64,000 nt of DNA. Origin: Clostridioides difficile ATCC 9689 = DSM 1296. GTDB taxonomy: Bacteria > Bacillota > Clostridia > Peptostreptococcales > Peptostreptococcaceae. Both the position numbers and the translations under genes were made by a program. The stretch lies in NCBI RefSeq assembly GCF_001077535.1, contig NZ_CP011968.1, forward strand, positions 2,418,001-2,482,000, written 5' to 3'. Below the pieces are notes generated by a model. It did no database searches and was not told the origin of the DNA. It saw only the letters and a list, made by a program, of their open reading frames with translations. Shown here one piece after another: positions 5,260 to 28,548 of this stretch. Position 1 is the stretch's first letter. Each line of letters starts with the position of its first letter.

Positions 5260-6027
5260 TTAATTAATACTCTTATGTAATAGATTAAGTACTGAATTTA
5301 ACTCTTTAAATGATATTTGCCCTGGTGCTGAAACACTTTTTGCAGCTCCAAAAGTCAATGCAGAACCAAATATTTCACCACACAATCTACTTATAACACC
5401 CATTCCTGACATTGACATTGTTATTATTGGTCTATCTGCATAAATTTTAAACATTTCATTTGTAGCTTCAAGTAGCACTAACACATCTTTTTCATTTTGC
5501 GGCATAACAGCTATTTTGGGTAAATCTGCGCCCAATTCCTGCATTCTACATAAACGAGATACAATCTCTTCTTTTTTTGGAGTTTTATTAAAATCATGAT
5601 TAGATATAATTACTTTCACTTCTTTTTTATGAGCAAAATTAACTACTTCATCTATGACCTCATCTCCCATAAATAACTCTACATCTATTAAATCTACTAA
5701 ACCTGTATTAGAAATTTCTTTATTCAAAGTAGTATAATAATCTCTTGATATTAATTTTTCTCCCCCTTCTACTACACTTCTAAATGTGAATAATAAAGGG
5801 ATATCATGTATATAACTTCTTAATTCATAGAGAACTTCCTTAACTTCTTTAATATTTTCTACATTCTCAAAAAAATCAACTCGCCACTCTATAATATCCA
5901 AACATGCATCTTTTAACTCTTTAGCCTCTTTTATAATATCTTTTTTATTTTTCCCAATAATTGGTACACAAATTTTAGGTCTACCTTCTCCAATAGTAAT
6001 ATTTTTTACTTGAACTTTTCTTTTCAT
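5260..6027 (-). CDS. aroD: Type I 3-dehydroquinate dehydratase
   Basis: This enzyme dehydrates 3-dehydroquinate to 3-dehydroshikimate in the shikimate pathway through a Schiff base. The 255-residue protein has the type I signature: the EWRVDFFEN strand near the N-terminus, the catalytic His in IISNHDFNKTP and the Schiff-base Lys in LPKIAVMP. The C-terminal SMSGMGVISR and SAPGQIS segments are conserved. The start is ATG 6027, five bases after GGAGGAG; the upstream ATG at 6039 overlaps that ribosome site. It is transcribed alone here, with no other aro genes beside it. Confidence 0.96.
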   Translation of the reverse strand: MKRKVQVKNITIGEGRPKICVPIIGKNKKDIIKEAKELKDACLDIIEWRVDFFENVENIKEVKEVLYELRSYIHDIPLLFTFRSVVEGGEKLISRDYYTTLNKEISNTGLVDLIDVELFMGDEVIDEVVNFAHKKEVKVIISNHDFNKTPKKEEIVSRLCRMQELGADLPKIAVMPQNEKDVLVLLEATNEMFKIYADRPIITMSMSGMGVISRLCGEIFGSALTFGAAKSVSAPGQISFKELNSVLNLLHKSIN

Positions 6028-6372
6028 ATTCTCCTCCATAATCAGAAATTCTATAGGACTTTAAATTCTATTTTCTGCACAATTTAATTATACATTAAAA
6101 ATACTATACATTATAAAAATACTAATTTAAAAATAATTTTTATTCTAATTCTTAAAACAATCCCACATATTTTAGAAAAGGTACTCTATAATATACAAAC
6201 ACTTCTTTTTTACCTAAATTTATTTTAACATCCTATAATTTTCATAATATTCTTTAAATTTTATTCATATAAACAATATTATTCTGGATGCTAATAGAAT
6301 TAATCTATAAATCATAGTATAATTATGCAGAAATAACTCGAATTTCACTACTTATGAAGAGATTGAATATTA
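6028..6372. other. Intergenic region between aroD and the LysR remnant
   Basis: About 345 AT-rich bases. It must hold the aroD promoter. No gene or clear structured element was recognised. Confidence 0.5.
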
Positions 6373-6552
6373 ATGAATCTAAATCATTTGCATTATTTAA
6401 GAGTTTTGACTAAAGTTGAACACCATACAAAAGTAGCTACTCAATTGTTTATACCCCAACCAAGCTTAAGTAATGTTATATAGATTCTCGAAAAAGAATT
6501 TAGTATCTTTTTATTTGAAAAACTTATATTAAATTTGATTATCTTTTCATAA
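6373..6552 (+). pseudogene. LysR-type regulator remnant, disrupted
   Basis: From ATG 6373 the frame reads MNLNHLHYLRVLTKVEHHTK, followed by a PQPSLSN helix-turn-helix segment typical of LysR N-termini. A TAG stops it at 6481. The same frame continues with ILEKEFSIFLFEK, the usual LysR wing sequence, and then loses similarity at about 6530. Only ~57 of ~290 expected codons remain, and the rest is not found to the right of the mobile element in this window. It probably marks the insertion point of the Tn916-like element, followed by decay. Confidence 0.75.
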
Positions 6553-6557
6553 GTTGG
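6548..6557. repeat. Direct repeat copy 1 (possible integrase arm site)
   Basis: CATAAGTTGG occurs here and at 6621-6630, within the non-coding end of the element. Tn916-family integrases bind direct repeats near the element ends through their N-terminal domain; this role is inferred. Confidence 0.45.
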
Positions 6558-6558
6558 T

Positions 6559-6605
6559 AAATGTCGATATATCCTGTATCTACAAGGAGTATCGACATTT
6601 TCTTT
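6559..6605. repeat. Perfect 11-bp inverted repeat at the element end
   Basis: AAATGTCGATA (6559-6569) pairs with TATCGACATTT (6590-6600) around a 20-base loop, with a T-rich run on the + strand. It may be a terminator-like hairpin or a protein site at the end of the element. Confidence 0.45.
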
Positions 6606-6620
6606 TTGGAAGATACTTTG

Positions 6621-6630
6621 CATAAGTTGG
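6621..6630. repeat. Direct repeat copy 2 (possible integrase arm site)
   Basis: A second exact CATAAGTTGG, 73 bases from the first. Flanking bases (TTGCATAAGTTGGCATTTA against TTTCATAAGTTGGTAAATG) are also similar. Confidence 0.45.
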
Positions 6631-6698
6631 CATTTAACCGTATAAGAATGCCATCAAAAGTAGTAAATAAGTAGTAAACTCTAGTCATACTACTAGGC

Positions 6699-7541
6699 TT
6701 ATAACCGTTCCATTTCAGCTCTCGCAGAACTAAATGAACCATGTGCATAATAGCCAAGCGTCATAGTAATGTTTTTATGCCCCATAATATATTGCAATAT
6801 ATTAGGACTCATTCCTTTGTTAGCCATATTTGTACAGAGTGTATGCATAAAGATATATGGCGTAATCTTTGGTAGCTTGTCCTCATGGGTCTTGTTATAC
6901 TTCTTGACTAACGCTCTTAACATGCTTTGATAATGAGTTGCTTGTTTTGGTAATCCATCTTGTTTAAGAAATAGGAAGTTCTGGTAACCATCAACAATGA
7001 TTGGTTCTGCTTTAGCGTTCTTACGCCGTTCAACGATACGTTCAAATGATTGATAAGCTCTTTCAGTCATTGGAATTTCTCGCTTACCCTGTGTGGTCTT
7101 TGGAACTTCTACATAATAGCCAATCTTAGTATCACTCAACAATTGATGGTCTACCATAATGGCTTTATTTTTCATATCCAATTCTAAAGTCAAACCGCAT
7201 AATTCAGAAATGCGTAGTCCTGTTTCTAAGAGGATAACAACATCATCATAATATTTACAATAAGTCTTATCGCTCTCCATAAAGGATAATAAGCCCATTT
7301 CCTGTTCTGGTGTTAGAGCGATTTTTGGTTCTGTTGTATCTTCCAAAACATCACTTAACTGAAAATTAAATGGATTCTTTCTAATACAGTCGTCTTGAAT
7401 TGCCATGAAAAACGACGCTTTCAGTGAGCGCTTATAATTGCCAATGGATTTATAAGCACACCCATCTTCACTCATTCGGATAGCCCAGCTTTTAGCGTCT
7501 GATAATTTAACCATATCAATGCTTTTTGCACCTAGTGGGTC
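6699..7541 (-). pseudogene. int: Tn916-type integrase, C-terminal part (catalytic domain)
   Basis: This is a tyrosine recombinase core and catalytic domain lacking its arm-binding domain. Similarity begins at DPLGAKSID, whose Asp codon is 7541-7539; the first ATG is at 7514 and an in-frame stop lies just upstream. The box I Arg (TGLRISELCGL), the beta-hairpin Lys (TTQGKRE), the third-box His (YIMGHKN) and the Tyr (LGYYAHG) are kept. In box II, where Tn916 has HSLRHT, this copy reads YIFMHT, so both the His and the Arg are lost. The missing N-terminal part is at 13143-13490 on the other strand. It should be inactive. Confidence 0.88.
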
Positions 7542-7614
7542 ATTGATAGTATCTATATTTTGATTTATAATTTATACATTTTTTTAAAAACAGACTTTTA
7601 ACTGTAAAGAATCT

Positions 7615-8313
7615 ATGTATAAACTTAGCTATGTTGTCCGTGTATCTACAAAGGATCTTGACGAGCTAAAAAGGCATTGTGATGAAGTCAAAGACTTTTA
7701 CGACGACTTATCAATCAAGCTCGTGCATCCCTTTGGGGATATGTTGGGATTGCATGGCGAATTTATTCCTGTCAGCAAACGTTACATCAATGATTATATT
7801 CAATATGTCACTTCGGATTTTTTGGCTGGACTTGGTTTTGGAGCGACACAAACCCTTGGCGAACATGAGGATATCTATGTTAGCTACAATCTGGACACTG
7901 GAAAGAATGTCTATCTAAAACCTGCCCTTGCTAGTCAAGGGGTAAAGGGTTCTATTACCAATGCGTTAGCGTCTGCGTTTATCGGTTCATTGGGTGGTGG
8001 TAAATTATTCAGTAACAATATGCTTGTTTACTATGCGGTACTATTCGGCGGATAGGCGGTCATAGTTGACCCTAAAGCAAAACGCGGCAAATGGAAAGAA
8101 ACGCTACCAGAAATAGCCCATGAGATAAACATTGTCAATTTAACCAGTGATGATGAAAACAAAGGATTGCTTGACCATTACGTCATTTTGAGCCGTAAAA
8201 AGGATTCTGAAAGTTTAGCGATTGATATCCTAACATTTCTTACTGGTATCTCCAGTCGTGACAGTGATAAGTTTTTGCAGAAAAATGACAACTGGAAAAT
8301 AATAATGGAATAG
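7615..8313 (+). pseudogene. Tn916 Orf16 (VirB4-like conjugation ATPase) fragment
   Basis: The frame matches the central part of the conjugation ATPase of Tn916-like elements, with conserved stretches such as DFLAGLGFGATQTLGE, ASQGVKGSITNALASAFIGS and LTFLTGISSRD. A TAG at 8053 interrupts it, and the same frame continues to TAG 8311. The Walker A motif, normally GSLGGGKS, reads GSLGGGKL, so the nucleotide-binding Ser/Thr is lost. Both ends are missing: Orf16 is normally over 800 residues and only ~230 remain. It is a relic of the conjugation module. Confidence 0.85.
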
Positions 8314-8363
8314 TTTCTATGTAAATATATTTTTACTATCTTACCTAACTAATTGAAAGATGA

Positions 8364-8369
8364 TATAAT
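8364..8369 (+). promoter_or_regulatory. Probable -10 box of the cargo regulator gene
   Basis: TATAAT lies 32 bases upstream of the regulator start, with TTACCT 17 bases further upstream as a weak -35. No GGTCA palindrome is present here, unlike the other two cargo promoters. Confidence 0.45.
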
Positions 8370-8400
8370 TTAATCAAAGATTTGGTAAGGAGGGATGAAT

Positions 8401-9021
8401 ATGCATTTAATTGATTTTATGAATGAAGATATTAAAAAGAAGCTTGTTAAAAAAACGTATAAAAAGAAAGAGACTATTCTTTTTGCTGAGCAAGAAAATG
8501 AATATGTAATTCTTATGATTGACGGTATTGCAGAAGCATTCATCTTAAATGTGAAAGGAAACATCTCAACGATTCATCTTTATAGAAGTGGTAGTTTTTT
8601 TGGAGAAATGGAACAATTTAATGATGGGAAAAAACCCGTTGAAATTGTCGCTTTCACAGATTGTAATGTATATAAACTTCATAGAGATGATTTTTTAAAC
8701 TGGTTAAGGGGAGATTTTGAAGCTACAAAATTTCTGATTCGAGAAATATCTAGTAAATTAGTTGTAAATGCTGAATTAATTGAAGAATTATCATCTTTAA
8801 GTGTTAAAGAACGACTTCTGAGGTGTATATCCTTACACTATTATAGAAGTGAATTAAATCTGCTTACCAAAAAACAGCTTGCTAGCGAAGTAAACGCTCC
8901 AATTAGAAGCATTAATCGTGCTATAAATGAATGTGTACAAGAACATCTAATTGCTTATGAAAACAAAAGATTTAGTGTAATTAATCAGCGAGAGGTATTA
9001 AAGAATCTTCCTACAACATAA
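8401..9021 (+). CDS. Crp/Fnr-like transcriptional regulator of the element's cargo
   Basis: The ~206-residue protein has an N-terminal cyclic-nucleotide-binding fold (residues ~15-115, with SGSFFGEMEQFNDGKKP at the phosphate-binding cassette position) and a C-terminal winged helix (TKKQLASEVNAPIRSINRAI). It lacks the Cys cluster of FNR. The start is placed at ATG 8401, six bases after AGGAGGG, because the ATG at 8395 abuts the ribosome site. It is first in the cargo and followed by a terminator. Two palindromes downstream, each at the class II activator position, are probable targets. The effector is unknown. Confidence 0.88.
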   Translation: MHLIDFMNEDIKKKLVKKTYKKKETILFAEQENEYVILMIDGIAEAFILNVKGNISTIHLYRSGSFFGEMEQFNDGKKPVEIVAFTDCNVYKLHRDDFLNWLRGDFEATKFLIREISSKLVVNAELIEELSSLSVKERLLRCISLHYYRSELNLLTKKQLASEVNAPIRSINRAINECVQEHLIAYENKRFSVINQREVLKNLPTT

Positions 9022-9031
9022 GTATAATTTC

Positions 9032-9070
9032 AAAAAAGTATTGAATAATAATTATTCAATGCTTTTTTAT
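9032..9070 (+). terminator. Terminator of the Crp-like regulator gene
   Basis: ATTGAATAAT and ATTATTCAAT (9040-9060) form a perfect stem, extended by AAAAAAG/CTTTTTT, with T6 after it, 11 bases past the regulator stop. Confidence 0.85.
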
Positions 9071-9074
9071 TTCG

Positions 9075-9086
9075 GGTCAAGTGACC
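9075..9086. promoter_or_regulatory. GGTCA-N2-TGACC palindrome, class II activator position
   Basis: GGTCAAGTGACC is centred exactly 32 bases upstream of the centre of TATAAT at 9110-9115, near -41.5 from the expected start of transcription. The -35 position reads TATTTT, so the promoter should need an activator. The adjacent Crp-like protein is the natural candidate. Confidence 0.6.
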
Positions 9087-9109
9087 TATTTTTTTTTATT
9101 TCTTCATTA

Positions 9110-9115
9110 TATAAT
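9110..9115 (+). promoter_or_regulatory. -10 box of the nucleotidyltransferase gene
   Basis: TATAAT lies 62 bases upstream of the gene start, without a -35 match at 17 bases spacing. Confidence 0.6.
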
Positions 9116-9176
9116 ACTCCTATGCATAATTATGTTGGATTGATAGCTAATAAAAGACAGTGAGAGGTGTTATATT

Positions 9177-9959
9177 ATGACTAAAACACAACAGAAAATG
9201 ATACAAAACGTATTAGAATTTTCAAAAAGAGATAGTAGGATAATAGGACTTGCAATTAGCGGTTCTTATATCACAAAATCGTTAGATGAATATTCTGATT
9301 TGGATTTTCTGATTGTAGCAGATGATAAATCCTATGAAGAAGTTATCGAAGAGAGATTACTTATTGTGGAACAGTTTGGAACATTAGTTTCTGCTTTTAC
9401 TGGCGAACATGTTGGAGAACCTCGATTGATAATTTCCCTCTATGATTCCCCTGTTCTTCATGTTGATTTTAAGTTTACAACCTTAGATGGTTTACTAGAT
9501 AGGGTTGAAGATTCAGCTATTCTCTATGAAGAAAACAACTGCATAACAGAAATTTATTCTAAAAAAGAAGCATACTTCCCAACTCCAGACTTACAGTGGA
9601 TTGAAGATAGATTTTGGATTTGGGTTCATTACGCTTGCACTAAGATTGGACGTAGAGAACTATTTGAAACAATTGATTTTTTATCTTTTTTAAGACAATC
9701 AGTACTTGCCCCATTAATACAACTTCTCTTAGGTAAATTACCTCGTGGAGTTAGAAAAATTGAATTGGACGCACCCCAATATATTGAAGCATTAGAAAAG
9801 ACGGTTGCTAACCATGAATATAAAAGCTGTGTTAATGCATTGCAGGCTACTATCAACCTGTATCTTGAGTTAAGAGAGGAATTATCACAAAGTCCTATTG
9901 TCCGAAAGGTTGAAGCTGAAAGGGTTGCATTACAGTATTTTCAAGATTTAATCAAATAA
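9177..9959 (+). CDS. Nucleotidyltransferase, antibiotic-modifying type (ANT/Lnu-like)
   Basis: The 260-residue protein starts at ATG 9177 behind GTGAGAGGTG. It opens with a polymerase-beta-type nucleotidyltransferase domain: the GSYITKSLDEYSDLDFLIV motif (residues ~29-47) gives the GS and paired Asp residues, and HVDFKF near residue 103 is a likely third acidic position. The C-terminal half is helical, as in aminoglycoside and lincosamide nucleotidyltransferases of similar length. The family includes drug-modifying enzymes, but the substrate here cannot be told from sequence. It is preceded by an activator-type palindrome and followed by its own terminator. Confidence 0.75.
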   Translation: MTKTQQKMIQNVLEFSKRDSRIIGLAISGSYITKSLDEYSDLDFLIVADDKSYEEVIEERLLIVEQFGTLVSAFTGEHVGEPRLIISLYDSPVLHVDFKFTTLDGLLDRVEDSAILYEENNCITEIYSKKEAYFPTPDLQWIEDRFWIWVHYACTKIGRRELFETIDFLSFLRQSVLAPLIQLLLGKLPRGVRKIELDAPQYIEALEKTVANHEYKSCVNALQATINLYLELREELSQSPIVRKVEAERVALQYFQDLIK

Positions 9960-9968
9960 ACCCAAAGT

Positions 9969-10005
9969 AAAAAAATATTGAATAGTAAATATTCAGTGTT
10001 TTTTC
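9969..10005 (+). terminator. Terminator of the nucleotidyltransferase gene
   Basis: An A-run, then a stem of TATTGAATA with TATTCAGTG, then T6, ten bases after the stop codon. Confidence 0.8.
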
Positions 10006-10011
10006 ATTTTT

Positions 10012-10023
10012 GGTCAAATGACC
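10012..10023. promoter_or_regulatory. GGTCA-N2-TGACC palindrome, second copy
   Basis: GGTCAAATGACC is centred 32 bases upstream of the centre of TATAAT at 10047-10052, the same geometry as the first copy. The -35 position reads TAGATT. Confidence 0.6.
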
Positions 10024-10046
10024 TAGATTAGTTGTTGTAACAATTC

Positions 10047-10052
10047 TATAAT
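10047..10052 (+). promoter_or_regulatory. -10 box of the synthetase-like/GNAT operon
   Basis: TATAAT lies 32 bases upstream of the gene start, downstream of the palindrome. Confidence 0.6.
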
Positions 10053-10083
10053 TATTTTGAAAGTAACAGTATGGAGGATAACT

Positions 10084-11010
10084 ATGAGTGATATTTTAAG
10101 TAGAATTACAAATAAAATTGGGGATAAGAATATAGTTGATAAGTTATCAGCTCTATCAAAATCAGATTTGAACTCACTTCTATTAGAAGTGTTTGATAGA
10201 CAAGCAAATACTTTAACTGCAACTGATATTCTAAAGTCATACCAACTAAATAGATTTACTATCCCTAGCGGTATAGATCCAGAAGAAATTCATGCTTTGG
10301 AATCAAATTTATTGAGAAAAGCATTCAATATGGATATCAAGACGATTATGCTTTCTCCCTCTGCCCCATTAGGTAGCTGTAGCGTTTTTGGCTCCGTAGA
10401 TCAATATAACGTAGTAAGTGCTCTACGAGGGACAGAAACACTTGCAGACCCCTCAAATATGTTGGCAATAATTATTGCTGATAAATTAAAAAGAAAAGAA
10501 GAAAATAATACCATACCTATCCACATGGCTACTACTGCTAGGGTAATAAGAGCACAAAATTTTGTAGGTAAAGGTTTATATTCACATTTTGGCTTATATT
10601 GTATGGTTTCATCTGGTATAGATACAGGGTCTTACACTTGTGAAAAAATGTTGTTAGAAAAGCACTTAAACTATTATAAAGATATATTAAGTGAAATAGA
10701 AAATGTTCGTTTCTCTATTATTCTACGCAAAAGAAACGGATACAAAGATAATGACGGATTTTTCGACAGAATGGTTGAAACTATCAAACTTATTTTTCCT
10801 AATATAGAGTTATCAATTCATAATGATGATGTTGATAATAATTATTATAAAGGTATCAATTTCAAAATATCGGTCAAACAAGGAAATGAAACCGTTGAAA
10901 TAGCTGACGGTGGATTTGTTGACTGGACTTATCAAATGCTTGGAAATAAAAAAGAACGCTGTTTGATAAGTGGTATTGGCTTAGAAAGATTTCTTGTAGC
11001 TGTTTCATAA
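10084..11010 (+). CDS. Protein resembling class II aminoacyl-tRNA synthetase core
   Basis: The 308-residue protein starts at ATG 10084 behind GGAGGATAACT. I do not recognise a named family. Its C-terminus, CLISGIGLERFLVAV, resembles motif 3 of class II synthetases (GxGxERF), and the stretch around TTARVIRAQNFVGKG, then YSHFGLYC, could correspond to motif 2. No anticodon-binding domain is present, so a free-standing catalytic paralogue, as in HisZ, PoxA or amino-acid-activating relatives, is possible. The GNAT gene starts 14 bases downstream, suggesting a shared operon and possibly linked chemistry. The aminoacyl-type reaction is inferred only from these motifs. Confidence 0.6.
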   Translation: MSDILSRITNKIGDKNIVDKLSALSKSDLNSLLLEVFDRQANTLTATDILKSYQLNRFTIPSGIDPEEIHALESNLLRKAFNMDIKTIMLSPSAPLGSCSVFGSVDQYNVVSALRGTETLADPSNMLAIIIADKLKRKEENNTIPIHMATTARVIRAQNFVGKGLYSHFGLYCMVSSGIDTGSYTCEKMLLEKHLNYYKDILSEIENVRFSIILRKRNGYKDNDGFFDRMVETIKLIFPNIELSIHNDDVDNNYYKGINFKISVKQGNETVEIADGGFVDWTYQMLGNKKERCLISGIGLERFLVAVS

Positions 11011-11023
11011 AAGGAGAAGAAAA

Positions 11024-11529
11024 ATGGAACTTATAGAGTGGAATTATGCTTATATTACCGAGTTAGTTGAGTTTGCGAATGATAAAGAAATTGCAAACAA
11101 TCTTCGTGACAACTTCCCCCACCCTTATAGGGAGCAAAACGCTAGAGATTTTATTAGTTTTTGTTTGGCAACTCCAGATGTTAAACAACTTAGCTATGCT
11201 ATTTTTTATCAAGAAAGGGCTATTGGAAGTATCAGCCTAACATTTGAAGAAGATACCTCTATTAATAAAAATGCTGAATTAGGTTACTGGCTTGCTAGGA
11301 ACTATTGGGGCAAAGGGATAGCAACAAATGCAATAAAAGAAATATGCAAAATTGCCTTTGAAAAATACAACCTTAACAAAATTCATGCTAATGTATATTC
11401 CTACAATAGAGGGTCAAGTAAAGTATTGGAAAAATGTGGTTTTAAGATTGAAGAATACTGTCACAATTCATAATAAAGAATAGAAACATGATTGATTGCC
11501 ATGTATATAGTTTAATTCGACCGCAATAG
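11024..11529 (+). pseudogene. GNAT N-acetyltransferase, frameshifted near its C-terminus
   Basis: From ATG 11024 (ribosome site AAGGAGAAG) the frame gives 149 residues of a RimJ/RimL-type acetyltransferase. Acetyl-CoA-binding residues are seen in RNYWGKGIATNAI and YNRGSSKVLEKCGF. The frame ends early at TAA 11471. One frame over, ILSQFIIKN...IDCHVYSLIRPQ, which ends at TAG 11527, is the missing C-terminus. One extra G at about 11454 would restore the family pattern KIEGILSQ. So the gene has a one-base deletion, or this is a sequencing error. It is co-transcribed with the synthetase-like gene. Confidence 0.8.
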
Positions 11530-11832
11530 CATTTATTAGAATTAACCTACTTTTTAATAACAGAATAAGTTTTTCCCCTCTATTAATTTCTTATGCATCT
11601 TTGTATTTTTATGAAAAGCTAGCCAATGCATATTTCCATACATCAATATGGTGGTGGCTTACAACCAATATAAATTAAATACGTTTTAAAGAATACACAT
11701 TTTTGCCCTATAGGCAGAGTGTGTATTTTTTTCTCTTTTTTTTGAAATTTATCGAAGATTTAATTCCCTCCCACCGTGATAGGAGTAAGCAAGGTTATTT
11801 AACTCCTTGCGATGGAAAGAGGGTGAAATCTT
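11530..11832. other. Gap between cargo and orf7
   Basis: It contains a terminator-like hairpin at 11694-11733 and, just before orf7, the repeat-rich TAGGAGTAAGCAAGG leader. No gene was recognised. Confidence 0.5.
11694..11733 (+). terminator. Terminator at the right border of the cargo
   Basis: ATACACA...TGCC pairs with GGCA...TGTGTAT and is followed by T7. It would stop cargo transcripts from entering orf7. Confidence 0.65.
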
Positions 11833-12240
11833 ATGGTTGATGAAAAGACAATTGAACATCAATTCGACAGTTTCTGTAAAACAGTTTTGCGTAACTATGC
11901 TAGAGATATTTATGACGAAAATAAACGCAGAAATGATTATTTGGTATCTCTCGAATCTTTGTCACTTGCAGAATTAAGTAAATTGAGTATTTTAGATGAT
12001 TATGATTCTAACTACATCTGTATGGTTTCTTACGACTACAACATACGAATTGAAGATGTATTAATGGCACAAGCAATCGGAAAACTTACAAAAAGAAAAC
12101 AAGATATAATTCTACTTTCATTCTTTCTCAACATGACAAATGCTGACATAGCAACATTGATGGATTTAGCAGAAAATACCATACATTATCACAAAACAAA
12201 TGCACTAAAAGAGTTGAAAGAACTCATGGAGGAACATTGA
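11833..12240 (+). CDS. Tn916 Orf7-like sigma-factor-related regulator
   Basis: The 135-residue protein matches the size and position of Tn916 Orf7. Its C-terminal half (residues ~80-130) is a sigma region 4-like helix-turn-helix: KLTKRKQDIILLSFFLNMTN, then ADIATLMDLAENTIHYHKTN. In Tn916, orf7 and orf8 lie downstream of tet(M) and drive transcription toward xis and int and on into the conjugation genes of the circular form. It starts at ATG 11833 after AGAGGGTG. It has no visible defect and overlaps the spacing of orf8 by only a few bases. Confidence 0.85.
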   Translation: MVDEKTIEHQFDSFCKTVLRNYARDIYDENKRRNDYLVSLESLSLAELSKLSILDDYDSNYICMVSYDYNIRIEDVLMAQAIGKLTKRKQDIILLSFFLNMTNADIATLMDLAENTIHYHKTNALKELKELMEEH

Positions 12241-12472
12241 AATGAAACCTACTAAAGAAGTATTACCTTTTACAATTATTTTACTTGCTGTACATGGCGA
12301 TGTAAATGCAATAAACGGAATACTTAAACATTTTGAACACTATATCATTCGTCTTTCACAGAAAACTTTATTTGATGAATACGGAAATCCCTATATTCAT
12401 GTAGAAGAAGAAACAAAGCGAATGCTAGGAACAAAACTAATCACTGCTATTTTGAGATTTAATTTGTCTTAA
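12241..12472 (+). CDS. Tn916 Orf8-like helix-turn-helix protein
   Basis: The 76-residue protein starts at ATG 12242, immediately after the orf7 stop, behind GGAGGAAC. It has the Tn916 Orf8 size and pattern: an N-terminal PFTIILLAVHGDVNAINGIL segment, then HFEHYIIRLSQKTL and a C-terminal KLITAILRF helix. These proteins resemble sigma region 2-like helical domains and act with Orf7 in regulation of conjugative elements. It appears complete. A terminator-like hairpin follows. Confidence 0.82.
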
Positions 12473-12861
12473 TCTCGCCCTCTCTCCATGTATCAAGCTA
12501 TTTGGTACATGGAGAATCACTAATTATTTGTCTATAAAAGCCCACAAGCTATTGTGATTTTTTATAGGCAAATCAATGCCGACTGTTCTTTGACAACTGA
12601 ATAAAGTAGATAGATACGTTTGTGATACAGATAGCCAACAAATACTATACGCCATGACCTTAATCAAGAGAGCTACTATATAGTGATTTGTGAATAACCT
12701 TTGGAACGGTTGTTTTGCCGTAACCTGTACCACAGTATAATGATACACCTGTATGACACGGTTCTGCCCATAAGAATGGGATTGGTTGAAATACCAATGG
12801 AGCTTACCAAAGCCATCTATCTACTTCTGAACTACGAACATAGAAAGGAGTGATACATTCT
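12473..12861. other. Non-coding stretch between orf8 and xis
   Basis: This 389-base region is conserved in position in Tn916-like elements upstream of xis. It contains a hairpin at 12484-12515 and a likely promoter near TATAAT at 12737-12742. Other-strand reading frames here lack ribosome sites. Confidence 0.55.
12484..12515 (+). terminator. Hairpin after orf8
   Basis: TCTCCATGTA and TACATGGAGA form a perfect 10-bp stem around a 12-base loop. No strong T-run follows, so it could attenuate or stabilise the transcript. Confidence 0.5.
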
Positions 12862-13065
12862 ATGAACAATACTGATGTACCTATTTGGGAAAAATATACC
12901 TTGACGATTGAAGAAGCGTCAAAATACTTTCGTATTGGAGAGAAAAAATTACGTAAACTTGCTGATGAAAACCTTGATTCTGGCTGGGTCATTATGAATA
13001 GCAATCGCATTCAAATAAAGAGAAAACAATTTGAGAAAATCGTTGATACACTTGACGTTATCTAA
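12862..13065 (+). CDS. xis: Tn916-type excisionase
   Basis: The 67-residue protein has the exact length of Tn916 Xis and its conserved sequence: [20 protein letters not shown], then ESGWVIMN-like and [12 protein letters not shown] segments. It is a winged-helix DNA-bending factor that directs the integrase to excision. ATG 12862 follows AAGGAGTG; an ATG four codons earlier overlaps poorly with that site. It lies 77 bases upstream of the N-terminal integrase fragment, the normal xis-int arrangement. It looks intact, but its integrase partner is broken. Confidence 0.93.
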
Positions 13066-13142
13066 TGAAATTGAGCCTTATATGTTATAATATTCATATG
13101 ACGTATCAAGCTCAATTCGGTTATTGAGAGGAGCTTCTTATC

Positions 13143-13496
13143 ATGTCAACTGAAAAAAGACGAGATAATAAAGATAGAATTTTAAGAACTGGAGAGAGCC
13201 AGAGAAAAGATGGAAGATACGCATATAAGTATGTATATTCATTTGGTAAACCACAATTTGTTTACTCTTGGAAACTTGTACCTACTGATAAACCCCCAAA
13301 GGGAAAACGTGATGATATATCATTAAGGGATAAGGAAAAAGCAATACAAAATGACCTTGATGATAGCATTGACACTATTGGTAAGAAAATGACAGTTTGT
13401 CAGTTATACGCTAAAAAGAATGTACTAAGAAAGAATATCCGACTTAACACTAAAAAAGGACGCCATTATCTTATGAAGATTCTTAACAAGGAGTGA
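13143..13496 (+). pseudogene. int: Tn916-type integrase, N-terminal (arm-binding) part
   Basis: The frame starts at ATG 13143 behind GAGAGGAG and matches the Tn916 integrase N-terminus: EKRRDNKDRIL, TGESQRKDGRYAYKY, SFGKPQFVYSWKLV, then GKKMTVCQLYAKKN. It is the arm-site-binding domain plus the start of the core-binding domain. Similarity ends after ILNK (13490) and a stop follows two codons later. Joining base 13490 in frame to base 7541 of the opposite strand gives ILNK-DPLGAKSID, with the same spacing as Tn916 (ILKKDKLGVRSID) and 396 codons in all. The gene was therefore cut in two by a rearrangement. Confidence 0.88.
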
Positions 13497-13567
13497 TTCT
13501 GTGAAGAGATGTATTGTAGTAGTGGAATAGTCAAAAACATAATATATATTAAAGGAGAGATTTAAAT

Positions 13568-14200
13568 ATGACTATTCCAAGTTCAAATAAGGTATATCCA
13601 AGAAGTAATGATTATCAAACTGTATATCTTAAAAATGTAATAACAAGGGAAAATATAGAAGTTGGAGATTACACAATATATAATGACTTTTATAATGACC
13701 CAAGAGATTTTGAGAAAAACAATGTATTGTATCATTACCCTATAAACAATGATAAATTAATAATTGGTAAGTTTTGCTCAATAGCATGTAATGCAAAATT
13801 TCTAATGACTAGTGGAAATCACTCAATGAAATCAAAATCCACATATACTTTTCCCATCTTTTATGAAGAATGGAAACTCGATATCAACCATATAACGGAC
13901 GCTTGGGACAATAAGGGTAACATTATAATTGGAAATGATGTGTGGATAGGTTATGATTCTATAATTATGTCAGGTGTAAATATTGGTGATGGTGCAATTA
14001 TTGGAACAAGAGCAGTAGTTACTAATGACGTCCCACCGTATTCTATTGTTGGAGGAGTACCTGCAAAAATTATAAAAAAGAGATTTAATAATGATACAAT
14101 TTCAAAATTATTAGAAATTAAATGGTGGGATTGGCCATATAAAAAAATTCAATCAAACATTAAGCATATTCAATCAGGAAATATTGATAAATTAGTTTAA
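13568..14200 (+). CDS. CatB/Vat-type xenobiotic acetyltransferase
   Basis: The 210-residue protein has the left-handed beta-helix acetyltransferase fold: hexapeptide repeats around IIGKFCSIACNAKF and IIIGNDVWIGYDSIIMSGVNIG, the catalytic-loop His in SGNHSMKS and a C-terminal VGGVPAKIIKKRF signature. It would move acetyl from acetyl-CoA to a hydroxyl of a drug such as chloramphenicol or a streptogramin A. The length matches CatB/Vat enzymes. ATG 13568 follows AAAGGAGAG. It starts 72 bases right of the integrase breakpoint and is AT-rich like the host; it may be a native gene rather than cargo. Confidence 0.85.
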   Translation: MTIPSSNKVYPRSNDYQTVYLKNVITRENIEVGDYTIYNDFYNDPRDFEKNNVLYHYPINNDKLIIGKFCSIACNAKFLMTSGNHSMKSKSTYTFPIFYEEWKLDINHITDAWDNKGNIIIGNDVWIGYDSIIMSGVNIGDGAIIGTRAVVTNDVPPYSIVGGVPAKIIKKRFNNDTISKLLEIKWWDWPYKKIQSNIKHIQSGNIDKLV

Positions 14201-14311
14201 TATTTTATAATTTATTTATATTAAACTTTACTTTAATAATCATTTTATAAGAGCTTTTTCAAAATTTGTATATTATTTTAATATATATAAATTTAATACA
14301 ACATTAAATAA

Positions 14312-14357
14312 AATAAAAAGTAAAGTTACTTAATAAAAAGTTACTTTACTTTTTATT
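14312..14357 (+). terminator. Hairpin downstream of the CatB/Vat-type gene
   Basis: AATAAAAAGTAAAGT (14312-14326) pairs perfectly with ACTTTACTTTTTATT (14343-14357), and the 3' arm itself is T-rich. Confidence 0.6.
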
Positions 14358-14465
14358 ATTTAAATTCCTGTTTTTATTATAATAGGTAAAATTCTATTAA
14401 ACTAGTTCACATTTTCATTATTATTGATATATTATATATGAATATACCATTTTGTTTTTTAATAA

Positions 14466-14516
14466 AAAAATCATGCTACATCAATAGTAAGCAACTATTA
14501 ATGTAGCATGATTTTT
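14466..14516. terminator. Bidirectional terminator
   Basis: ATCATGCTACAT...AATAGT pairs with ACTATT...ATGTAGCATGAT. T-runs lie on both sides, so it can stop the + strand acetyltransferase and the - strand radical SAM gene. Confidence 0.85.
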
Positions 14517-19730: not shown

Positions 19731-20702
19731 TTATAGATATTTAATTCCACTCCAGTATATGTTTTCGTACATTTTAGTTATTTCTGGAAGCTCTACACCT
19801 TCAAGTGCCCATTTTTTAAATTCCATAAATCCTGTTCTATCAATTATATATCCTATATGTTCTTTTCCTCCTGGTGCATCTTTATCTATATACTTTTCTA
19901 CATATCTATAAGTATTAAGTATTATCTTTATTATGCTGTCCTCATCTACCCATAAAAGAAAATCTTCTGCTAGTCTAGGTTTTTTCTTTCCTGTTCTACC
20001 CATTATAGCTAATCTATAGTATTTTTTCTCATCTCTAGTCCATGCATTTGTTGGGCAATTTAGTACACACTCTCCACAGCCTATACACTTATCTTTATCT
20101 CTTACCACCTTATTATTTTCTGTTTTTAATGCTCCAACAGATATCTTAGAACATTTTTTTACACATGCTCCACAATTTACACATCTATCCTTTTCATATA
20201 TTGGTAAAGCCATACCAATAATTCCAAAGTCATTCATTCTAGCTTTTATACAATCATTTGGACAACCAGTTAAAGCCACTTTAAAATGTAAATCATTTGG
20301 AAATATAGCTTTTTCTATTCTTTTAGCAAATTCAGTTGTATTATATTGAGCCTTTGGACAGACTTTATTTCCTATACAAGCTGCTATATTTCTTGTACCT
20401 GCCGCTGGATAACCTGCGTTTTTCTCACTTTGATTTATATTCATTTTTTCAATAACAGGTTGTATAATTTTATTTATATCTTCCATATCTTCCATATTTA
20501 TTCCTAATATTTCAAACCCCTGTCTTGTAGTTATGTGCACCTGTCCATTGCCGTACTCACTTGCAATTTTAGAAACTATAGCTAAACTTTCAGGGTCAAT
20601 AAGACCACCAGGTACTCTAACTCTTAAAGAAGTCTCATATTTTGTTTTTGTAATTCTATAAGCATTTTTCATTACTTTTTTGGTATTTAAATCTCTTATC
20701 AC
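19731..20702 (-). CDS. asrC: Anaerobic sulfite reductase subunit C (siroheme subunit)
   Basis: AsrC holds the siroheme and coupled [4Fe-4S] centre that reduce sulfite to sulfide. Cysteines for it lie in CIGNKVCPKAQ and LTGCPNDC, downstream of the sulfite-binding-type TTRQGFEI. Two ferredoxin clusters are inserted (CVNCGACVKKC and CIGCGECVLNCP). The start is placed at GTG 20702, six bases after AGGGGGTG; an in-frame GTG at 20711 overlaps that site. It starts 12 bases after the asrB stop. Confidence 0.93.
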   Translation of the reverse strand: MIRDLNTKKVMKNAYRITKTKYETSLRVRVPGGLIDPESLAIVSKIASEYGNGQVHITTRQGFEILGINMEDMEDINKIIQPVIEKMNINQSEKNAGYPAAGTRNIAACIGNKVCPKAQYNTTEFAKRIEKAIFPNDLHFKVALTGCPNDCIKARMNDFGIIGMALPIYEKDRCVNCGACVKKCSKISVGALKTENNKVVRDKDKCIGCGECVLNCPTNAWTRDEKKYYRLAIMGRTGKKKPRLAEDFLLWVDEDSIIKIILNTYRYVEKYIDKDAPGGKEHIGYIIDRTGFMEFKKWALEGVELPEITKMYENIYWSGIKYL

Positions 20703-20714
20703 AAACTTCACCCC

Positions 20715-21506
20715 CTAATCAATAAGATTTTTAGCATATGAATAATCAAATACTGGTCCATCTAAACATATGTAAGTATCATCCATTTTACAATGTCCAC
20801 ATTTACCTATTCCACAACACATTTTTCTTTCATAAGAAACCCAAATGTTCTTTTCATCTAAATCTCTTTTTAAAAATTCTTCTACTGTAAATTTCATCAT
20901 CATTGGAGGTCCAACTACAACTATAGAAGTATTGTTTATATCTTTCATATCCAATTCTGGTATGTATTTTGTTACTAATCCTACATTACCACTATATCCT
21001 TCCTCTGCTCCATCTACAGTAACTAAAATATCAAGTTTTTTACTCCATCTCTTTAAATCATCTGCAAATAAAATATCTTTTGGTGATTTAAATCCTACTA
21101 TTAATTTAAACTTTTCGCATTTTTCTTTATTATTATAAAAATATTCAACTATTCCTCTTACAGGGGCTAATGCACTTCCTCCTGCCACTACTACAATTTC
21201 TCTTCCTTCATAAAGGGATACATCAAATCCATTTCCATAAGGACCTCTTATAAAAAAAGAATCTCCTTCTTTATAATTAAACAACTCGCTAGTTACTTTT
21301 CCTACATTTCTTATTGTAAAGTCAATATAATCCTCTCCATATCCTGATACTGATATTGGACTTTCACCGTATTTAGGTATAGATATCTCATAAAACTTTC
21401 CAGGCAATACACCTTTTGTATTGCAGTTTACTCTAAAAGTCCATTCTTTATCAGTATGTTTAACTATATCTAGTATTTTTGCACTTACTGGTATATATGG
21501 GTTCAT
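20715..21506 (-). CDS. asrB: Anaerobic sulfite reductase subunit B (flavin, NADH)
   Basis: The 263-residue protein is a ferredoxin-NAD reductase-type electron-transfer subunit. It has an FAD-binding beta-barrel, the glycine-rich GPYGNGFDVSLYEGREIVVV and AGGSALAPVRGI for NAD(P)H and flavin, and a C-terminal [2Fe-2S] binding segment CCGIGKCGHCKMDDTYIC. It passes electrons from NAD(P)H to AsrC. Its ATG directly follows the asrA stop codon (TAA-ATG), so translation is coupled. A GGAGG site sits inside the end of asrA. Confidence 0.95.
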   Translation of the reverse strand: MNPYIPVSAKILDIVKHTDKEWTFRVNCNTKGVLPGKFYEISIPKYGESPISVSGYGEDYIDFTIRNVGKVTSELFNYKEGDSFFIRGPYGNGFDVSLYEGREIVVVAGGSALAPVRGIVEYFYNNKEKCEKFKLIVGFKSPKDILFADDLKRWSKKLDILVTVDGAEEGYSGNVGLVTKYIPELDMKDINNTSIVVVGPPMMMKFTVEEFLKRDLDEKNIWVSYERKMCCGIGKCGHCKMDDTYICLDGPVFDYSYAKNLID

Positions 21507-22514
21507 TTATACTTCCTCCTTACTAATTACTAAATCATTTATTTTTTCTATACACTTTGAAAATGATATGTATTGCGGACAGGCATCATCACATCTTCCA
21601 CAGCCAACACACATATGATATCCGAATCTTTTTTTAAAATCATGTATTTTATGCATAGTTTTAAATCTCATTCTTTCGCCTTGTTTTTTTCTAAAAGAAT
21701 TTCCACCTGCTATATCTGTATATCCATCTACTTGACAAGAAGCCCAAACCCTTCTTCTCTCACCTACATTTTCGTTTTCCTTATAGAAAATATCCTGCAT
21801 TGTAAAACATGAACATGTTGGACATACAAAATTACATCTACCACATCCTATACATCTTGTATCATATTCATCCCATATTGAATTTCCTATCATTTCATTT
21901 GAATCAATATTCTCTGGCACATCTACAGATATTAAATTATCAGTTACATAATCAACATTAAATTCAGTTGCTTCTCCATTAAATACTTCAAATTCACTAT
22001 CCTTTAAATCTAAGTACAGTGTATCTCCTTCTATATTTAATCCAATTGAATAATTATCAGTTTTGTTAGAATCCATGCTCACACAAAAACAGTTTCTAAA
22101 ACTTTCCTTACACCCTACAAGTGCAAACTTTACTTTATCTCTGATATTTTTATAAAAATAATCTTTTTCTTCACCATTATTTAGATATATTTCATCAAGT
22201 CTTTTTATACCATTTATGTCACAAGCTCTTAAGAAAATTAAAATTTTCTTGTTGTCTAAATCGCTTTCCTTAAACTCTTTTTCAGTAAAATAAAACAATA
22301 CTTGATTTATGGGAAGTACAACTTCTTTTGGTGAAAAGTTTGCTTTCTTAGCAAATTCCATTTCTTCAAAAGCGTTTACCTCCTTGTATCTTATAACATC
22401 AGTATCTGAAAAAGTACCTTTAAATGGGATTAAAACTGGTGCAAATATCTTGTAGTCTTTTTTTAGATAATTCAGACCTTCATTGAACTTAGATGAATCT
22501 AATTTTAGTTTCAT
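21507..22514 (-). CDS. asrA: Anaerobic sulfite reductase subunit A (4Fe-4S)
   Basis: The 335-residue protein carries two ferredoxin-like [4Fe-4S] sites in its C-terminal half (CIGCGRCNFVCPTC and CVGCGRCDDACP), like AsrA of Salmonella. It is the electron-input subunit of the sulfite reductase. The start is ATG 22514 behind AGAAAGGTGAT. It is the first gene of asrABC and the channel gene. A Crp-type palindrome 80-93 bases upstream fits control by the adjacent Crp/Fnr-family regulator. Confidence 0.95.
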   Translation of the reverse strand: MKLKLDSSKFNEGLNYLKKDYKIFAPVLIPFKGTFSDTDVIRYKEVNAFEEMEFAKKANFSPKEVVLPINQVLFYFTEKEFKESDLDNKKILIFLRACDINGIKRLDEIYLNNGEEKDYFYKNIRDKVKFALVGCKESFRNCFCVSMDSNKTDNYSIGLNIEGDTLYLDLKDSEFEVFNGEATEFNVDYVTDNLISVDVPENIDSNEMIGNSIWDEYDTRCIGCGRCNFVCPTCSCFTMQDIFYKENENVGERRRVWASCQVDGYTDIAGGNSFRKKQGERMRFKTMHKIHDFKKRFGYHMCVGCGRCDDACPQYISFSKCIEKINDLVISKEEV

Positions 22515-22565
22515 TTTTATCACCTTTCTTATATTTTAGTTTTACTTACTTGCTATCTTGTTTAA

Positions 22566-22904: not shown

Positions 22905-23594
22905 TTAATTATTTTTAAAATACCTTGATAATTCAATTTCTTTAACATAAAAACCTTTATTGTCAATTTTAATAAGTTCTTCTTTTTGCAATACCTTTAT
23001 CATTCTGGAAACAGTCTCCCTTTTACAGCCAAGCATATCAGCTAAATATGTAACTGTAATATTTACATTTAGTAAAGTCCATTCTCCACAGCAAACTCCA
23101 AATTCTCTACTTAACCTATATAATTTTGCTGCAAGTTTTTTATCTACTTTTATGGATATAGAATTTTTCAACTGTCTATATAAACGTCTTATTCTTCTTT
23201 CCATATAAGAAATAATATCCTTTGTAAGTTGAAAATCATTTTGCATAAGTTCTAAAAATTCTTCAATACTATAATAAGCTACAATTGAATTTTCAAATGC
23301 TTCACAGCCAACAGTAGAGTTTTTAGAAGCGTCAAGTGTAATATCATTTATGACTTCCCCACTATTTAATATGAAAATTACTTTTCTCTCTCCATTTTCA
23401 CTTATCTTAAAAATAGATACCTTTCCTTCTAAAAGTATATAAACACTGTCTAAGCTATCTTTTTCATAAAATAAAATTTCTTTTTTTTGTAATCTTTTTA
23501 GTTTAACTTTTTCTTTAAGTTGATTCTTCGTTTTAGTACTTAAATTATTAAAAATTATTACTTTATCAATATTATAATCTTTTAATTTAGACAT
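22905..23594 (-). CDS. Crp/Fnr family regulator, probable activator of asr
   Basis: The 229-residue protein has a cyclic-nucleotide-binding-type domain (residues ~20-120, including SVYILLEGKVSIFKISENGE) and a Crp winged helix (VTYLADMLGCKRETVSRMIK, residues ~180-199). The recognition helix RETVSR is close to that of E. coli Crp, which binds TGTGA, and a near-perfect Crp site lies upstream of asrA, the next gene on this strand. The start is ATG 23594, seven bases after GGAATGGAGAG. Sulfite or redox sensing is possible but no FNR-type cysteine cluster is seen. Confidence 0.87.
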   Translation of the reverse strand: MSKLKDYNIDKVIIFNNLSTKTKNQLKEKVKLKRLQKKEILFYEKDSLDSVYILLEGKVSIFKISENGERKVIFILNSGEVINDITLDASKNSTVGCEAFENSIVAYYSIEEFLELMQNDFQLTKDIISYMERRIRRLYRQLKNSISIKVDKKLAAKLYRLSREFGVCCGEWTLLNVNITVTYLADMLGCKRETVSRMIKVLQKEELIKIDNKGFYVKEIELSRYFKNN

Positions 23595-23656
23595 GTAATA
23601 TCTCTCCATTCCTAAATTTTTAAGAGAGCTCTATAAAACATTACAAATTTCTTATT

Positions 23657-24523: not shown

Positions 24524-25411
24524 TTATATTTTGTTTAAAAAATTATATAATGCTCCAAGCATTCCTGCATCATTTTGTCTCTTTGCAAATTCTATATTAG
24601 TGTTTTTGTAAACTCTCTCTATAAGAACCTCCTTTAATGCTTTGTCTATTTTTTGTTTTAGGAACTTTTCTTGTGCCATAATCCCACCACCTAAAATTAC
24701 CACTTCTGGATTTATTACATAACATATATTTGCGATTCCAACTGCTAATGATTTTATCATATTATCGAGTTCTTTTAAACAATCTTCATCATTATTCTTT
24801 GCTAAATCAAAAATTATTTTTCCATTTAAGTCATTTTCATTCAAATTTTTTATTTTTGCTACTTTTTTAATTAGACTGCTAGTAGATGCCAATTCTTGAA
24901 AAGAACTTCCATTTACATTCATATATCCTACTTCACCAGCACTATTACTAAACCCATTTATCAGTTTATTATTTATTATAATACATCCACCAATTCCAGT
25001 ACCTATTGTTAAACATATAGAAGATGTTGCACCTCTACCTGCTCCAAGCCACATTTCACCAAGTCCAGCACAATTAACATCATTTTCAACTTCACATTTT
25101 ATATTAAACTCTTTTTCTACTTCTTTTTTTAATTGCATGCCCTTATAGTTTGGAATTAATTCTTCTAATGCAAATAGTATTTTACCTTCAACTGGGTCAA
25201 CCATACCTGCAGTTGATATACATATACCACTTATTTCATTTTCCTCTATATATTTTTTTACTATATCTTTTATTTTGGCTAATATTCCTTCTCCACCTTT
25301 TTCCTTTGCTTCAGTATCAAGACTTGATTTATCAATTATAAATCCATCTTCTCTAATAAAACCATATTTTATTGAAGTACCCCCAACATCTATACAAACG
25401 TAATTTTTCAT
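24524..25411 (-). CDS. nanK: ROK kinase, probable N-acetylmannosamine kinase
   Basis: The 295-residue protein has the ROK features: the N-terminal phosphate loop VCIDVGGTSIKYG, the catalytic DVNCAGLGEMWLG and an ATP-binding CLTIGTGIGGCII. The ROK zinc-binding Cys/His motif is not evident, as in several NanK proteins. In this cluster the expected reaction is ATP-dependent phosphorylation of ManNAc, the product of NanA. The start is ATG 25411 behind GGAGATATG. The substrate is inferred from context, as ROK members also include glucokinases. Confidence 0.88.
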   Translation of the reverse strand: MKNYVCIDVGGTSIKYGFIREDGFIIDKSSLDTEAKEKGGEGILAKIKDIVKKYIEENEISGICISTAGMVDPVEGKILFALEELIPNYKGMQLKKEVEKEFNIKCEVENDVNCAGLGEMWLGAGRGATSSICLTIGTGIGGCIIINNKLINGFSNSAGEVGYMNVNGSSFQELASTSSLIKKVAKIKNLNENDLNGKIIFDLAKNNDEDCLKELDNMIKSLAVGIANICYVINPEVVILGGGIMAQEKFLKQKIDKALKEVLIERVYKNTNIEFAKRQNDAGMLGALYNFLNKI

Positions 25412-25468
25412 AACATATCTCCATACAAATTATTTTTATAAATTAACAACTCTATTTAAAATTTTATA

Positions 25469-26272
25469 TTACACAAATCTTTTACTTATCTTTTCCAATT
25501 CACAGATATATTTCCTTGCTTCTGATAAGTCTATAGTATCACTTAATACACTTTTTTCTTTGGTTATATGATACTTATAAATATTTTTACATAAGTCCTC
25601 TCCTAACATATTAAGACCTTCTTGAGTGTAATGAACATCATCAATAGTTAATCCTCTGTCATGAAACTGCATAGCAATTTTGCTTCCTACACATAATATA
25701 TCACATTCACTACAAGCCGACTCCTGTGCTGCTGCAATTCGTCTTGTTCTAATAAAATATTCATCTTCTCCAAGCCAATAACCAGTTAAACTTACAAACA
25801 TTTTATCAATCATACATTCTTCTTTAAGCCTATACGCAATTTTTTTTAGACTTTCTTTATAGTACAATACATCACTACCATATTTTGCATCACTTTCACC
25901 TTGAATCCAAATAACGTATTTATTTTCTATATTATAATGTTTACTTAAGGTAGTACAGCCTGTATTAAATTTTTCTATAGTGTCATTTAGAAACCAGTTA
26001 TTATCATGATTCCAGTTTTTTATTCTTGAACCATCTTTTGCATTGTGAATAAAACAAACTTTATTTCCAGTAAGCTTATTCCATTCATTTGAAAATGCAG
26101 GTGCTATAGTACCATCACCTTCTGAAGTCTCTAGCTCACATCTCATATTTATAATTTCATCAGTACTCAAATATTCAAAACAATTTTCATTTGGAATGAT
26201 GCTCTCTTTTGGATTTCCCAATCCTCTAGCATTGCTTTGTCCTATTAATAAGAATACATCTATATTTTCCAT
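25469..26272 (-). CDS. SGNH-type sialate O-acetylesterase-like protein
   Basis: The 267-residue protein starts at ATG 26272 behind AAAGGAG. It belongs to the SASA/DUF303 carbohydrate acetylesterase group: the nucleophile Ser lies in FLLIGQSNARG (residues ~8-18), the block III-like WIQGESDA is present, and the acid/base Asp-x-x-His is in DDVHYT near residue 216. There is no signal peptide, so it acts inside the cell. It probably removes O-acetyl groups from imported sialic acids, which fits its place in the nan cluster. Confidence 0.87.
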   Translation of the reverse strand: MENIDVFLLIGQSNARGLGNPKESIIPNENCFEYLSTDEIINMRCELETSEGDGTIAPAFSNEWNKLTGNKVCFIHNAKDGSRIKNWNHDNNWFLNDTIEKFNTGCTTLSKHYNIENKYVIWIQGESDAKYGSDVLYYKESLKKIAYRLKEECMIDKMFVSLTGYWLGEDEYFIRTRRIAAAQESACSECDILCVGSKIAMQFHDRGLTIDDVHYTQEGLNMLGEDLCKNIYKYHITKEKSVLSDTIDLSEARKYICELEKISKRFV

Positions 26273-26330
26273 AAGTTAACTCCTTTACAAAATTTTAAGC
26301 TTTTAATTATTTTCAATTTTCTCATAAAAA

Positions 26331-26414
26331 ACTAAGGCTGAAAATAGTAATCTAACTAAAATTTACGAAGTCTCACTAATCGCTGAAAGTTAAATCACTA
26401 TTTTCAGCCCTAGT
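26331..26414 (-). terminator. Long RNA hairpin between yhcH-like and esterase genes
   Basis: Two 26-base arms (26331-26356 and 26389-26414) match at 23 positions; in the - strand transcript the other three become G-U pairs, so all 26 pair. A run of about six U follows. It should terminate or reduce transcription between the two parts of the nan cluster. Confidence 0.75.
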
Positions 26415-26431
26415 GGTTATATAAATTATCA

Positions 26432-26884: not shown

Positions 26885-26952
26885 AAGCACTATCTCCCTA
26901 TATAATTATAAAGTCTATTTTTATACTTTTATATACAAAGTATATTATACAA

Positions 26953-26994: not shown

Positions 26995-27013
26995 ACAATT
27001 TATCATTTAAATA

Positions 27014-28516: not shown

Positions 28517-28548
28517 TTGACTAATCCTCCCATACTAAAAGTATTTTA

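Follow-up and report, generated by a model that had tools for sequence, protein, structure and literature searches.

In this study, we present evidence that the gene at 8401-9021 of the window, the stretch of 64,000 nucleotides of Clostridioides difficile ATCC 9689 = DSM 1296 that was analysed, encodes a YeiL-like activator of the Crp/Fnr superfamily that would bind the palindrome GGTCA-N2-TGACC as a dimer and act from a class II position at two promoters of the neighboring cargo genes, a reading to which we assign a probability of about 0.85. In the sequences compared, the candidate site, its placement, the 23-nt gap to a -10 box and the link with a neighboring regulator gene are conserved across lineages; binding by the regulator, activation and control by a ligand are what we infer from this conservation. 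In the proposed mechanism, the regulator would bind a ligand that is probably nucleoside-like, and its dimer would dock at both sites, centered near -41.5 from the predicted transcription starts. The docked regulator would then recruit polymerase to class II promoters that have no -35 element, promoter 1 serving the nucleotidyltransferase gene and promoter 2 the operon of the HisRS-like protein and the GNAT acetyltransferase (Table 1).

Table 1. Features of the regulator, its cargo and the surrounding element in the window (positions of the window; strand; support)
Feature	Position	Strand	Support
TcpF-type conjugation ATPase fragment, ends at in-frame stop	7615..8055	+	NCBIfam TcpF 1.1e-86, positions 346-491 of 813
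Crp/Fnr-superfamily regulator, YeiL-like, 206 aa	8401..9021	+	Pfam cNMP_binding 2.5e-14, over cut-off
Intrinsic terminator hairpin of regulator gene, copy 1	9032..9068	+	RNA fold -15.2 kcal/mol, z -7.6 vs shuffles
Operator 1 (predicted), GGTCAAGTGACC	9075..9086		Conserved in relatives
-10 box TATAAT, nucleotidyltransferase promoter (predicted)	9110..9115	+	23 nt past operator 1
Nucleotidyltransferase, Adenyl_transf type, 260 aa	9177..9959	+	Pfam Adenyl_transf 5.5e-10, 39.3 bits vs 22
Intrinsic terminator hairpin of nucleotidyltransferase gene, copy 2	9970..10004	+	RNA fold -12.8 kcal/mol, z -6.4 vs shuffles
Operator 2 (predicted), GGTCAAATGACC	10012..10023		Conserved in relatives
-10 box TATAAT, HisRS-like/GNAT promoter (predicted)	10047..10052	+	23 nt past operator 2
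Class II synthetase-like protein, HisRS-like (308 aa, no anticodon-binding domain)	10084..11010	+	Family profile
GNAT acetyltransferase	11024..11473	+	Pfam Acetyltransf_3 3.4e-25
Sigma-factor-like and HTH_16 genes, Tn916 family	11833..12472	+	Pfam Sigma70_r4_2 8.1e-11, HTH_16 2e-23
Tn916-type integrase, N-terminal part	13143..13496	+	Pfam Integrase_DNA 3.7e-31

The two blocks at 9032-9088 and 9969-10025 align without gaps, with 48 of 57 positions identical overall and 42 of 51 past the A-run. These identities were recomputed here, and the duplication, the palindromes, the TATAAT coordinates and the distances of 32 bases between the centers of palindrome and TATAAT (that is, a 23-nt gap in both copies) all agree with what had been described in a sequence-only reading of this DNA. 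The exact palindrome occurs at two places in the whole 4.15-Mb genome, both of them here; the reversed control pattern is absent from the genome, and 0.007 occurrences would be expected in the window from base composition. With a 17-nt spacer, the -35 slots before the two boxes hold TATTTT and TAGATT, which match TTGACA at 1/6 and 3/6 positions and bear out the claim that neither promoter has a -35 element. Since TATAAT by itself is frequent (141 on the plus strand of the window), it is the spacing conserved in relatives, and not the hexamer, that supports the -10 assignments. A dimer site near -41.5, counted from the start that the -10 box predicts, together with a weak or missing -35 element is the layout of a class II Crp/Fnr promoter; the class II site of E. 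coli CRP likewise lies near -41.5.

We compared 28 loci bearing the synthetase-like gene, comprising 24 from a scan of the genome collection with an alignment of the synthetase-like protein, three taken from the order sample, and the window itself; a site was called where at least 9 of the 10 fixed bases were present in the 200 nt that precede the synthetase-like gene. The regulator lies beside this gene or its neighbors in 15 of the 28 loci. The site was found in 14 of these 15 (10 perfect, 4 with one mismatch) versus 2 of the 13 loci without the regulator, a co-occurrence with a Fisher p of 5e-5 among loci that are not all independent, and the earlier proposal that a local Crp-like regulator acts near -41.5 on the cargo promoters gains support from it. 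The regulator-bearing exception, L022, has no site before the synthetase-like gene, its second spacer being deleted, and keeps the one before the nucleotidyltransferase gene, so that the operon as a whole could be transcribed from one promoter. Both regulator-less loci with a site belong to Paenibacillus (L025, 9/10; L034, 10/10) and retain the gap of 23, and the regulator is not detectable in their genomes at E<=1e-3; their site is either a relic left after loss of the regulator or the site of another protein. The site is also missing from the other 11 of the 13 regulator-less loci, and the synthetase-like gene can therefore do without the switch.

The palindrome also emerged when the motif was not given beforehand. 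Seven lineages (the window, L027, L028, L029, L030, L038 and L042), with regulators 50-57% identical to that of the window, were searched for 5+5 dyads with gaps of 0-10 in 150 nt of upstream sequence, and solely GGTCA-N2-TGACC and its one-base-shifted form were present in all seven. No dyad reached more than 3/7 in 200 dinucleotide-preserving shuffled sets or more than 2/7 in seven regulator-less loci. Summed over these lineages, the -10 score peaks at the gap of 23 with 34 of 42, a value equalled at no gap in the shuffles (0/2000); the hexamer at this gap matches at six positions in the window, L027 and L028, five in L030, four in L038 and L042, and three in L029. A better hexamer is found at gap 26 in L038 and L019, and the need for an activator is less obvious in L042 because its -35 slot is near consensus (5/6). 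A 9/10 site was also observed in L038 (1947-1958), directly 5' of another Crp-like gene of Breznakia (1973-2725) and 3' of a TATAAT.

At the level of whole genomes, the regulator (E<=1e-106) and the synthetase-like protein (E<=2e-110) each occur in 8 of the 297 genomes of the order sample, and the two sets of genomes coincide, two marginal synthetase-like matches (E 3.5e-4 and 6.9e-4) not being counted as holding the gene. Among 19 genomes from which loci were derived, the regulator was detected at E<=1e-15 in 6/6 with an in-locus regulator and in 0/13 others, and among 398 genomes of the phylum its own genome alone contained it at E<=1e-25. A genome-wide regulon was considered and rejected; the six regulator-bearing locus genomes contain 25 exact palindromes versus 24 for the reversed control, and the regulon therefore looks local. 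The L028 genome was left out of both the 19-genome regulator search and this count.

The regulator gene, which has a further in-frame ATG at 8395, encodes a protein with an N-terminal cNMP-type beta-roll (PF00027, 53.4 bits vs a cut-off of 27.5) and a C-terminal Crp-type helix-turn-helix (HTH_Crp_2, 25.2 bits, slightly below the cut-off of 27), and it aligns over nearly its full length with Vfr and CRP chains; this domain order places it in the Crp/Fnr superfamily. The best NCBIfam model by E-value is YeiL (PRK10402), which matches 12/12 module regulators; at 43.4 bits versus a curated cut-off of 180, the window protein falls outside the YeiL subfamily proper, and the genes that the module is predicted to govern differ from those of E. 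coli YeiL. It shares domain order and full-length similarity with E. coli CRP and Vfr and differs from them in the phosphate-binding cassette, where their Arg-Ser (R82 and S83 of the cAMP pocket in CRP) is replaced by Lys78-Pro79, invariant in 12/12 module regulators. Because of this replacement, cAMP is unlikely to be the ligand. The RS-x-NR of the recognition helix is present in 12/12 module regulators and in 19/22 of the more distant relatives described below (missing in L098, L105 and L112). The CRP site is TGTGA-N6-TCACA, whereas the module site is GGTCA-N2-TGACC. The half-sites of Listeria PrfA are two bases apart and near -41.5, as in the module site, although their sequence is unlike it. 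A second Crp-like gene, at 22905-23609 on the minus strand, is the sole other match to the regulator profile in its own genome at E<=0.01 (6.7e-11), and it adjoins putative anaerobic sulfite reductase genes at 19731-22523 (translations read by eye).

What the regulator senses is suggested by its closest relatives outside the module. In the order sample, the eight module regulators rank first and are followed by a single bridging sequence in genome G170 (E 1.5e-54) and then by YeiL-like regulators at E 3.0e-25 to 3.1e-19; all 23 of the latter were examined except G250, which lies at a contig end. Nucleoside uptake or salvage genes adjoin the regulator in 20 of these 22 loci. One neighbor per locus was picked by eye before the Pfam scan, and the picked genes encode 12 PnrA-like (Bmp) substrate-binding proteins, seven cytidine deaminases and one DeoC-type aldolase, the remaining two being a rubrerythrin (L093, where the contig ends past the regulator) and an Hsp90 (L098). 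In a dyad test on 17 of the 22 loci, in which the window motif was not used, GGACA-N2-TGTCC was the commonest palindromic dyad upstream (7/8 and 6/9 in two groups). It stands upstream of the regulator in 18/22 relatives (absent in L104, L105, L108 and L112), and the 10 Bmp-type loci with this dyad likewise show a 23-nt gap between it and the -10 box (score 53/60). In the deaminase-type regulator loci (L089, L093-L097 and L100), the gap to TATAAT is 41 in 7/7 (42/42), which puts the site near -59.5; the class I activator position is close to -59.5. Recognition helices of the GGACA-site groups read NIRSVNR or TQRSINR and the like.

The bridging locus (L088, in G170) carries a regulator gene with an in-frame stop codon, its product sharing 36% identity with the window regulator over 144 residues; the recognition helix encoded beyond the stop reads TPIRSLNRAI, which closely resembles the APIRSINRAI of the window regulator and differs from the helices of the GGACA-site groups. 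A perfect GGTCA-N2-TGACC is followed there, after 23 nt, by TATACT toward a divergent nucleoside hydrolase gene (IU_nuc_hydro 1.9e-77). The G170 genome has no match to the synthetase-like protein, and within its genome family of 41 the regulator was found in G170 alone (1/41). This locus would tie the module's type of operator to nucleoside metabolism more directly. On the sequence evidence, the predicted module site belongs to a wider operator family that includes GGACA-N2-TGTCC at nucleoside-salvage regulators. In E. coli, yeiL adjoins rihB, nupX and psuTGK, and the clostridial relatives likewise adjoin nucleoside genes; GG-x-CA-N2-TG-x-CC is absent from the E. coli yeiL-rihB stretch, unlike the module. 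The ligand is probably nucleoside-like, given that the next relatives share this kind of site and adjoin genes for the uptake and salvage of nucleosides. With the neighbors of these relatives as its basis, our best guess would be that the inducer is such a compound.

The strongest competing explanation is that the palindromes are operators at which the regulator represses, or both activates and represses. The position of the site before the regulator gene in L029, L030 and L088 (perfect) and in L028 (8/10), 0-8 nt 3' of a -10-like box, suggests autorepression in these four loci and fits that view; the window has no GGTCA-N2-TGACC site at the regulator's own promoter. At the cargo, however, the sites lie upstream at the class II distance, without a -35 element in the window, and the upstream gap is the same in the Bmp-type relatives, so that we consider repression at the cargo a rather improbable reading. 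It is less probable still that some other DNA-binding protein uses the site, the neighboring regulator being incidental: L025 and L034 do keep a site without a detectable regulator, but the co-occurrence of 14/15 versus 2/13 argues against it, as does the fact that the regulator's relatives have, ahead of their own genes, a form of the site that differs by a single base in each half. Activation by the adjacent regulator remains our preferred reading.

The sequence-only reading had treated the terminator hairpin and the palindrome as one terminator-operator module. The palindrome part of that proposal holds as a candidate operator, and the hairpin with its T-run does not belong to it: a hairpin at the same place in L019 is unrelated to those of the window, and the site of L042 starts 5 nt past the regulator gene, so the hairpins are ordinary terminators of the upstream genes and lie outside the switch. 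The palindrome itself might be an RNA element within a tandem terminator and not a DNA operator, since GGGTCAAGTGACCT with its T-run at copy 1 scores as terminator-like and folds modestly (-6.2 kcal/mol, z -2.8). We find this very improbable, because no comparable T-run follows the palindrome in copy 2 or in the other dyad-test loci, the palindrome accompanies the presence of the regulator, and in L088 it sits between two divergent genes. Least credible of all is that the duplicated block is functionless and conserved by common descent alone, as the very similar Clostridioides and Enterococcus copies might suggest, given that no other 5+5 dyad is found in all seven lineages and shuffled sets stay at 3/7 or below.

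With regard to the history of the two copies, window block 2 differs from its counterpart in Enterococcus L023 at three positions (a hand count on the alignment) and from window block 1 at 9 of 57; the window copies thus differ more from each other than block 2 does from L023, and the duplication is therefore not very recent. Enterococcus L023 and L024 lack the nucleotidyltransferase gene, and their spacer between the regulator and the synthetase-like gene corresponds to both window flanks joined at a short shared run of letters. This fits paired blocks that accompany the nucleotidyltransferase segment, either through gain in the window or through loss in Enterococcus.

The cargo lies among genes that resemble the Tn916 family, namely an integrase DNA-binding domain, a TcpF-type fragment that we take to be Orf16 of Tn916, and sigma-factor-like and HTH_16 genes that presumably correspond to Orf7 and Orf8 of that family. 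The integrase and conjugation genes are present in the window in fragmentary form. Integrase pieces at 6699-7514 (minus strand) and 13143-13496 (plus strand) flank the cargo on opposite strands, and both are 94% identical (over 261 and 117 residues) to a single 393-aa integrase of L014; the element has therefore undergone rearrangement and survives as a remnant. Between the flanking Tn916-type genes we found no tet(M), in contrast to Tn916 itself. In L013 the same cargo lies between open reading frames that we take to be Orf13 and Orf7, and the position between them is presumably the tet(M) slot of Tn916. A search of the plasmid collection gave one DNA match of 74.5% over 3% of the query and one protein match of 29.7%, that of the phage collection gave no match, and viral contigs held no relatives of the synthetase-like protein or the regulator. 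Rfam at gathering scores gave nothing within 6000-14500. Elsewhere in the window, 13568-14200 (plus strand) encodes a hexapeptide acetyltransferase like the Vat-type streptogramin acetyltransferases, at 240 bits versus a curated cut-off of 300, and 24524-30171 (minus strand) holds a putative operon for the catabolism of sialic acid, close to a gene for an RpiR-type regulator (translations read by eye).

The nucleotidyltransferase scores far below the cut-off of every NCBIfam drug-resistance model that it touches, and at 16 bits against ANT_6 (cut-off 420) it is outside the ANT(6)-type adenylyltransferases. The synthetase-like protein on its own has no Pfam or NCBIfam match, and none of the solved structures searched by sequence matches it. 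Its relationship became visible at the family level: weak Pfam tRNA-synt_His matches (best 2.2e-4) occur in 18 of its 23 members, a search of two sequences with the family profile picks out the host HisS (3.7e-4), with a C-terminal stretch (YY...F, GG..D) aligned, and the host HisZ-like protein gives no significant match to the profile. An AlphaFold model of the protein has a pLDDT of 74.8 and a pTM of 0.73, residues 92-120 and 156-164 being poorly modelled. With 308 aa, weak similarity confined to the core and no anticodon-binding domain, the product of 10084-11010 is, as far as its sequence tells, HisRS-like and not a histidyl-tRNA synthetase. The GNAT protein is of RimJ/RimL type by NCBIfam matches below cut-off. 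PADLOC and PHROGs yielded weak matches and, for the GNAT protein, a generic acetyltransferase family, and make no case for the cassette as a defense system.

The enzyme cassette occurs in Clostridioides, Enterococcus, Geosporobacter, Limnobaculum, Citrobacter and Breznakia, and has probably spread by horizontal transfer. The fold families of its enzymes, this spread and its slot in the element suggest an inducible detoxification or resistance set against a nucleoside-like compound, which is the weakest step of our argument and which we put forward tentatively, at well under even odds. In its most specific and somewhat more doubtful form, a YeiL-type nucleoside sensor that reads GGTCA, not GGACA, might have been captured by a Tn916-like element and might now switch a mobile resistance cassette, the inducer being the antibiotic itself. 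The HisRS-like ligase, the GNAT protein and the ANT-like nucleotidyltransferase would on this same speculative account act against a nucleoside-type or aminoacyl-nucleoside antibiotic.

In the literature searched, we recognized no description of the cassette or of a bacterial operator of this kind. The consensus sequence occurs in papers on oestrogen receptors or oestradiol, as judged from the portions of those papers that were available, and the available portions of PMC3158075, PMC6814731 and PMC3616900 do not mention the cassette or the operator. The present analysis provides a complete, predicted assignment of regulator, operator and promoter in a branch of the Crp/Fnr superfamily that has been little described, and links this branch to nucleoside uptake and salvage. 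It also points to an operator code that may be family-wide, GG[A/T]CA-N2-TG[T/A]CC, and the switch of the cassette suggests compounds against which its enzymes could be tried.
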